Shown here one piece after another: positions 32,460-32,775 of a stretch of 37,797 bases of DNA. The translations under genes were made by a program, and so were the position numbers. Positions within the stretch are counted from its first letter, which is position 1, and each line of letters starts with the position of its first letter. Source of the stretch: Bacillota bacterium (lineage in GTDB: Bacteria > Bacillota > Sulfobacillia > Sulfobacillales > Sulfobacillaceae); NCBI GenBank assembly GCA_021798975.1, contig JAJZBJ010000010.1:1-37797 (forward strand). The letters run 5' to 3'. The notes beneath the pieces are model-generated. The model was not told the DNA's origin. It ran no database searches and saw only the letters and a list, made by a program, of their open reading frames with translations.

Positions 32460-32562
32460 GGTCTTCCTCCTCGAGGGTGTAATCGGCTTTGGGAGCCACT
32501 TTCAGTGTGGGGATCGGGGTCCGCAAAAGCAATCGCCCCAATATGCAAATGGCGAATATGGA

Positions 32563-32591
32563 TGGAACGGATCATGCATTCCTCGTATGAT
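32563..32591 (+). promoter_or_regulatory. Candidate promoter of the tRNA gene
   Basis: TGGAAC (32563-32568) and TATGAT (32586-32591) are 17 bases apart; the predicted start of transcription is within a few bases of the 5' end of the tRNA at 32600. The -35 box is weak. Confidence 0.45.
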
Positions 32592-32599
32592 ATAAGCGC

Positions 32600-32694
32600 G
32601 ACGGCCACCGGGTCCTGGTGGGCTCCCTCGGCTGCAAACCGAGCGACCTGAGATCGGTCTCGGGGTTGGGTTCGATTCCCAAGGGCCGTCTCCA
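32600..32694 (+). tRNA. tRNA-Cys(GCA)-like gene with a long variable arm
   Basis: The 95-base gene encodes its CCA end (32692-32694). The acceptor stem is GACGGCC/GGCCGTC (32600-32606, 32684-32690), with discriminator T at 32691. The anticodon arm is CTCGG-CTGCAAA-CCGAG (32627-32643), anticodon GCA at 32634-32636. The T arm is TTGGG-TTCGATT-CCCAA (32666-32682). An extra G (32683, opposite A32607) lies between acceptor and T stem. The 22-base variable region can form a 6-bp arm, CCTGAG/CTCGGG (32647-32652, 32659-32664). The D region could form a 6-pair stem with one mismatch (32610-32615 with 32621-32626), as in tRNA-Sec. GCA and U73 are CysRS identity elements, but normal tRNA-Cys has a short variable loop. 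A strong terminator follows. Confidence 0.85.
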
Positions 32695-32722
32695 AATTCC
32701 CGCCCATATTGATAAAAAGAAA

Positions 32723-32775
32723 GGCAACAGGGGAAAAGCCGTGCCTTTTCCCCTGTCGCCCTATTTATTTGATTT
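32723..32775 (+). terminator. Terminator of the tRNA gene
   Basis: A perfect 12-bp stem, ACAGGGGAAAAG and CTTTTCCCCTGT (32727-32738, 32745-32756), extends by three outer pairs past one mismatch. The loop is six bases and a T-rich tail (TATTTATTTG) follows. It begins about 30 bases after the tRNA CCA. Confidence 0.8.

Follow-up and report, generated by a model that had tools for sequence, protein, structure and literature searches.

Selenoproteins are encoded by about 20% of prokaryotic genomes (PMC5330540). According to the selC* review (PMC7609411), selC* tRNA-Cys combines cysteine identity with a tRNA-Sec-like body (Mukai et al. 2017), carries U73 with a GCA or, in some members, a UCA anticodon, and occurs in phyla that include Firmicutes and Nitrospirae, the organisms being spoken of as anaerobic bacteria. 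The same review describes an 8/4 form with a bulged A51a, called the most striking selC* feature although reported to be dispensable for charging, and places selB* and cysS* beside selC* in some deltaproteobacterial groups only. Allo-tRNAs, found in the same surveys (Mukai et al. 2017, reviewed in PMC7609411), share the Sec-like body; their identity is that of serine, and their acceptor domain is 12 bp long, in 8/4 or 9/3 form. For Desulfotomaculum nigrificans, a Sec-like tRNA-Cys(GCA) is reported to be delivered by SelB and not by EF-Tu, and to place Cys at Sec UGA codons (Vargas-Rodriguez et al. 2018, cited in PMC11415595).

The window analyzed here, a 37,797-nucleotide stretch of contig JAJZBJ010000010.1, contains a tRNA gene that belongs to this published kind, selC*/tRNA-ReC (Table 1). 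The second name is reportedly the one used by Vargas-Rodriguez et al. 2018 for the Desulfotomaculum nigrificans tRNA. ARAGORN called positions 32600-32694 as tRNA-Cys with anticodon GCA, and the sole gathering-level Rfam match in the whole window was tRNA-Sec (RF01852) at 32600-32690, so that the Sec covariance model proposed as a check by the first-pass annotation recovers the gene (57.8 bits against a gathering cut-off of 47 bits, E=2.5e-9). The score of model R1 for 32600..32694 is 112.2 bits. The gene reads GACGGCCA CC GGGUCC UGGU GGGCUC C CUCGG CUGCAAA CCGAG CGA CCUGAGA UCGG UCUCGGG G UUGGG UUCGAUU CCCAA GGGCCGUC U CCA. Its minimum free energy (MFE) fold comprises a 7-bp acceptor stem, a 6-bp D stem with a 4-nt loop, a 5-bp anticodon stem with a sixth pair formed across a bulged C, a 7-bp variable arm with a 4-nt loop, and a 5-bp T stem; the fold energy by itself is unremarkable (z=-1.39). 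GCA, a discriminator T, the encoded CCA, a long variable region and a six-position D arm, all listed by the first-pass annotation, are present on the + strand, and the long variable arm it drew stands, at 7 bp in place of its 6. Eight nucleotides lie on each side between the T stem and the ends, with A.G as the eighth pair, in agreement with its two drawings (7/5 with a bulged G, or 8/5 with an A.G mismatch).

Table 1. Positions of the tRNA gene, its parts and flanking elements in the window
Feature	Position	Strand	Basis
tRNA-Sec-like tRNA-Cys gene, selC*/tRNA-ReC kind, CCA encoded	32600..32694	+	ARAGORN, Rfam, fold
Acceptor 5' strand GACGGCCA, pairs 1-7 Watson-Crick, eighth A8.G	32600..32607	+	MFE fold
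D arm, 6 bp, 4-nt loop UGGU, tRNA-Sec-like	32610..32625	+	fold, Rfam, covariation
Anticodon GCA	32634..32636	+	ARAGORN
Variable arm, 7 bp, loop UCGG	32647..32664	+	MFE fold
T arm, 5 bp, without bulge	32666..32682	+	MFE fold
Acceptor 3' strand, 8 nt, G facing A8	32683..32690	+	
Discriminator U73, cysteine identity	32691..32691	+	sequence; U73 in all orthologues
Upstream dyad ATGCA-N5-TGCAT, right half degenerate in window copy	32543..32557	+	
Possible -10 hexamer TATGAT, by eye	32586..32591	+	TATRAT-like string, same place, several orthologues
18-pair hairpin, terminator-like on the - strand	32721..32762	-	

The molecule departs from the neighboring tRNA classes in distinct ways. The short variable loop, 7/5 form and short D stem of canonical tRNA-Cys are absent, and in place of the G73 and UCA of tRNA-Sec it has U73 and GCA, which bears out the earlier statement that this is no normal tRNA-Sec. 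The 6-bp D stem with its 4-nt loop, the long variable arm and the 13-pair acceptor/T domain are nonetheless those of tRNA-Sec RF01852. Thirteen acceptor/T pairs is the length found in bacterial tRNA-Sec. Allo-tRNAs (PMC7609411) differ in both identity and domain length from the window tRNA, whose discriminator is U73 and whose domain comprises 8 nt plus 5 bp. With selC* and the Desulfotomaculum nigrificans tRNA it shares the Sec-like body (long D stem, long variable arm and extended acceptor), Cys identity and the GCA anticodon (PMC7609411 and PMC11415595), and its host, as expected for selC*, also has a canonical tRNA-Sec and Sec machinery. The window tRNA differs from the selC* description in that it is unbulged and of 8/5 form, its eighth pair being A.G, and in that neither selB* nor cysS* lies beside it; since adjacency of those genes is reported in some deltaproteobacterial groups only, this adjacency does not define the kind as a whole. 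A further difference from the anaerobic bacteria of which the selC* review speaks is that Sulfobacillus species are facultative anaerobes (PMC4378227).

The host is a metagenome-assembled genome (2.89 Mb, 87% complete). Sulfobacillus is an acid-loving bacterium. A plasmid from G011, a member of the host's family, is 100% identical over the first 20 kb tested to CP003180.1 of Sulfobacillus acidophilus DSM 10332, which places the host in the GTDB family of that strain. A canonical tRNA-Cys(GCA) lies at C45:18643 and a true tRNA-Sec, with UCA and G73, at C174:6031; the window tRNA is therefore an additional isoacceptor distinct from both. The reading of this gene as the genome's ordinary and only tRNA-Cys, for which the first-pass annotation had asked that a standard copy be sought, is ruled out by the copy on C45, and its preferred reading, a minor tRNA-Cys isoacceptor on a tRNA-Sec-like body, agrees with the RF01852 match, the U73/GCA pair and this second tRNA-Cys. 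The special decoding role that it suggested as possible is one published for tRNAs of this kind (PMC11415595) and is predicted for the window tRNA. The selenium genes it also suggested looking for include SelA (on C182) and one SelB (on C50); there is one CysRS (on C126), and neither SelB nor CysRS has a paralogue. SelA is nearly universal within the host family, so its co-occurrence with the tRNA there is uninformative. In the host, a cysK-like gene precedes the tRNA-Sec gene by 37 nt (L083:5019-6126); G178 likewise has a cysK-like gene, at a distance of about 1.1 kb from its Sec-like tRNA-Cys.

Orthologues were found in the genus (G001, G004, G006), the family (G011, G013, G021, G023) and the order (G035), and further copies, with a model built from nine copies, in G005, G014, G017, G022, G027, G030 and G031, giving 16 carrier genomes in family and order with the host counted. 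U73 is present in all orthologues and GCA in all except the G005 copy, which has lost one anticodon-loop base and looks degenerate. In an alignment of nine sequences, 94.6% of cells are paired and both-sided changes occur at 13 pairs. The covariation score is 0.371 versus 0.154 in shuffles, none of 500 shuffles matched the observed value on any measure, and sliding the partner columns by at least one position destroyed the signal. The D-arm helix is 98% paired across the nine orthologues, with compensatory change, and the variable arm varies in sequence among orthologues with its pairing kept. In a FastTree analysis, the Sulfobacillaceae copies group with Sec-like Cys tRNAs from other phyla in a clade of 23 such tRNAs and no tRNA-Sec (support 0.94), a weak result because the alignment is short (66 columns, identity positions and variable arm excluded). 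A recent duplication of the host tRNA-Sec is accordingly not favored, with the same weakness. One Sec-like tRNA at L068:6150-6250 (G042) has GCA, U73, an unusual C33 and a variable arm of about 10 bp by eye.

The window tRNA can be drawn as 8/5, with 13 pairs and A8.G as the eighth, and given the mismatch could alternatively be drawn as 7/5 plus a bulged G. The eighth pair is A.G in most family copies and A-U in genus g8, where the 8-bp acceptor is thus real. A non-Watson-Crick eighth pair is also found in the host's own tRNA-Sec, which has G.A, as do almost all tRNA-Secs of the class that were examined; a mismatch common to the lineage's genuine tRNA-Sec is no argument against the 8/5 form. 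Co-evolution of this pair with tRNA-Sec is not strict, as g8 has A-U yet the parsed tRNA-Secs keep G.A (a comparison from which the G027 tRNA-Sec was left out).

The window gene is flanked by genes for an FAD oxidoreductase, a STAND-like NTPase and an S9 peptidase, a neighborhood partly kept in the family (FAD oxidoreductase, pirin, S9 peptidase). No selenium, SelB or CysRS gene adjoins the tRNA in the Sulfobacillaceae loci examined, and yedF gave no match above cut-off in the host family. A 15-bp dyad, ATGCA-N5-TGCAT (T-N11-A), with 9-10 of 10 matches, precedes six orthologues at -57 to -60 (L067, L069, L070, L071, L076, L077), and 12 sites of such quality occur in the 283 kb examined. Judged on its sequence, the dyad is operator-like. 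In these genomes no such dyad closely precedes selA, selB or tRNA-Sec, and none was found at genes of the selC*/tRNA-ReC kind in other phyla. The possible -10 hexamer was not reported by the consensus scan. The downstream hairpin may also terminate the tRNA transcript.

When whole genomes were scanned for the pattern of a GCA anticodon loop with a long variable arm after it, the matches listed fell into three groups. The first consists of Sec-like tRNAs with U73, from records that carry the labels Nitrospirae, Firmicutes, Actinomycetes, Chloroflexota and Planctomycetota. The second, from Rubrivivax and relatives, is Sec-like and has GCA together with G73, and the third comprises Phycisphaerales tRNA-Cys with a long variable arm and an otherwise ordinary D region. 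SelB scored above the curated cut-off in 31 of the 32 carriers tested among the matches listed (the U73 group, Sulfobacillaceae and two other class members), which are not mutually independent; the share of prokaryotic genomes with selenoproteins, for comparison, is about 20% (PMC5330540). Outside the class, a neighbor in a selB, yedF, yedE or LysR_Se homologue cluster was present at 15 of 25 loci among the matches listed, and ten representative selenium-gene neighbors were confirmed above cut-off by NCBIfam HMM. Such genes adjoin the tRNA at L099, L110, L113 and L155 (Nitrospirota records) and at L102, L114, L128, L161, L112, L160 and L168. In G105, G113 and G126, selB lies directly 3' of the tRNA and another SelB is found elsewhere in the genome. 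G105 has a bulged copy (L099) and an unbulged copy (L110), each followed by selB; the bulge thus varies inside the kind and is not treated here as defining.

Several further observations were made in these genomes. CysRS homologues that cover the 466-position model only up to about position 402-409 occur at G113:C7:32819-34030, G126:C54:4361-5584, G127:C181:20072-21304 and G119:C87:896-2122 (the genomes of L113, L155, L157 and L130, respectively), two of them with in-frame stops; from their sequences they are possibly CysRS* proteins without the C-terminal region. Long-arm tRNA-Cys(GCA) genes occur at the Phycisphaerales loci L101, L103, L105, L108, L111, L118 and others, that of L105 being the sole tRNA-Cys of a 31-gene tRNA cluster. 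The GCA/G73 loci of Rubrivivax and relatives (L095, L119, L126, L129, L149, L151, L153, L173) probably encode tRNA-Sec that reads Cys codons, and in G101, the genome of L095, this tRNA is the single tRNA-Sec match.

The window tRNA is probably a functional member of the selC* kind, charged by CysRS and used by SelB to deliver Cys at SECIS-marked UGA as a fallback for Sec. Its structure, conservation, Cys identity elements and co-residence with a full Sec decoding set (SelA, SelB, tRNA-Sec) and an ordinary tRNA-Cys are seen directly, and each step beyond structure and gene content we infer. The single CysRS of the host would charge the tRNA through U73 and GCA. The 13-pair acceptor/T domain and long D stem would disfavor EF-Tu and suit the single SelB, and the SelB-bound Cys-tRNA would enter at a SECIS-programmed UGA, with GCA mispairing with UGA. 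Cys versions of selenoproteins, for example formate dehydrogenase, would be made when Sec-tRNA is short. Sulfobacillus genomes encode putative Sec-containing formate dehydrogenases (PMC4378227), so that UGA-SECIS targets should exist and are predicted for the host. Consistent with such a fallback are the union of Sec body and Cys identity, the covariation and the conserved family locus; the single SelB and CysRS together with SelA and tRNA-Sec in the host; and, both among the matches listed, the near-constant presence of SelB in carriers and the selenium-gene linkage in other phyla. The Desulfotomaculum nigrificans precedent points the same way, SelB delivery and UGA recoding being reported there (PMC11415595) and predicted here. 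Counting against it are the normal reading of UGC/UGU by GCA, the absence of selenium-gene linkage across the Sulfobacillaceae loci examined, and the mismatched eighth pair, although the host's own tRNA-Sec has a mismatch there as well.

One alternative is an auxiliary Cys isoacceptor, delivered by EF-Tu to UGC/UGU on an inherited Sec-like body that SelB does not use: GCA and U73 amount to normal Cys identity, and the gene lies apart from selenium genes in the family. Such a tRNA is unlikely, because the canonical tRNA-Cys already fills this role, compensatory change has preserved the 13-pair domain together with the variable arm and the Sec-like D stem, SelB is present in almost every carrier among the matches listed, and EF-Tu is reportedly not used by the Desulfotomaculum nigrificans counterpart (PMC11415595). 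A role outside translation, as a Cys donor or in regulation, or one in sensing Cys/Se status, would fit the operator-like dyad conserved upstream in six orthologues and the linkage to selenium-metabolism genes in other phyla, but no enzyme using aminoacyl-tRNA was found next to the window tRNA, where the three neighbors named above stand instead; we regard this as quite improbable. A Sec body with a GCA anticodon also recalls Aeromonas salmonicida, in which a tRNA-Sec variant inserts Sec at cysteine codons. SerRS favors G73, yet U73 is present in all orthologues, and the host genome has a normal tRNA-Sec, leaving a variant of this type very improbable. Decay to a pseudo-tRNA, suggested by the G005 copy, is the faintest of these prospects: the window copy is intact, and orthologues in 15 further genomes together with covariation above all shuffles indicate that it is not a pseudo-tRNA.

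Returning to the Cys fallback through SelB, it is tempting to ask how it might be controlled. In Sulfobacillaceae the tRNA could be a regulated switch responding to selenium status, in which a LysR-type or other regulator acting on the T-N11-A dyad would set the share of Cys versus Sec in formate dehydrogenase and other selenoproteins, the cell's one SelB serving both tRNAs, a rather doubtful proposal. The presence of such tRNAs in Sulfobacillaceae, the 8/5 form with A.G and the upstream dyad may be new, as may the linkage of the tRNA to yedE, yedF and LysR_Se, although earlier reporting is possible in each case. That this tRNA recurs beside homologues of selB, yedE, yedF and LysR_Se in other phyla speaks for a role in selenium economy. 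The range of natural Sec-to-Cys recoding tRNAs thereby widens to a family that has members in culture and genomes that are complete (S. acidophilus DSM 10332). SelB and CysRS are apparently single-copy there, so that how Sec-tRNA and Cys-tRNA compete for a single SelB would be directly testable.
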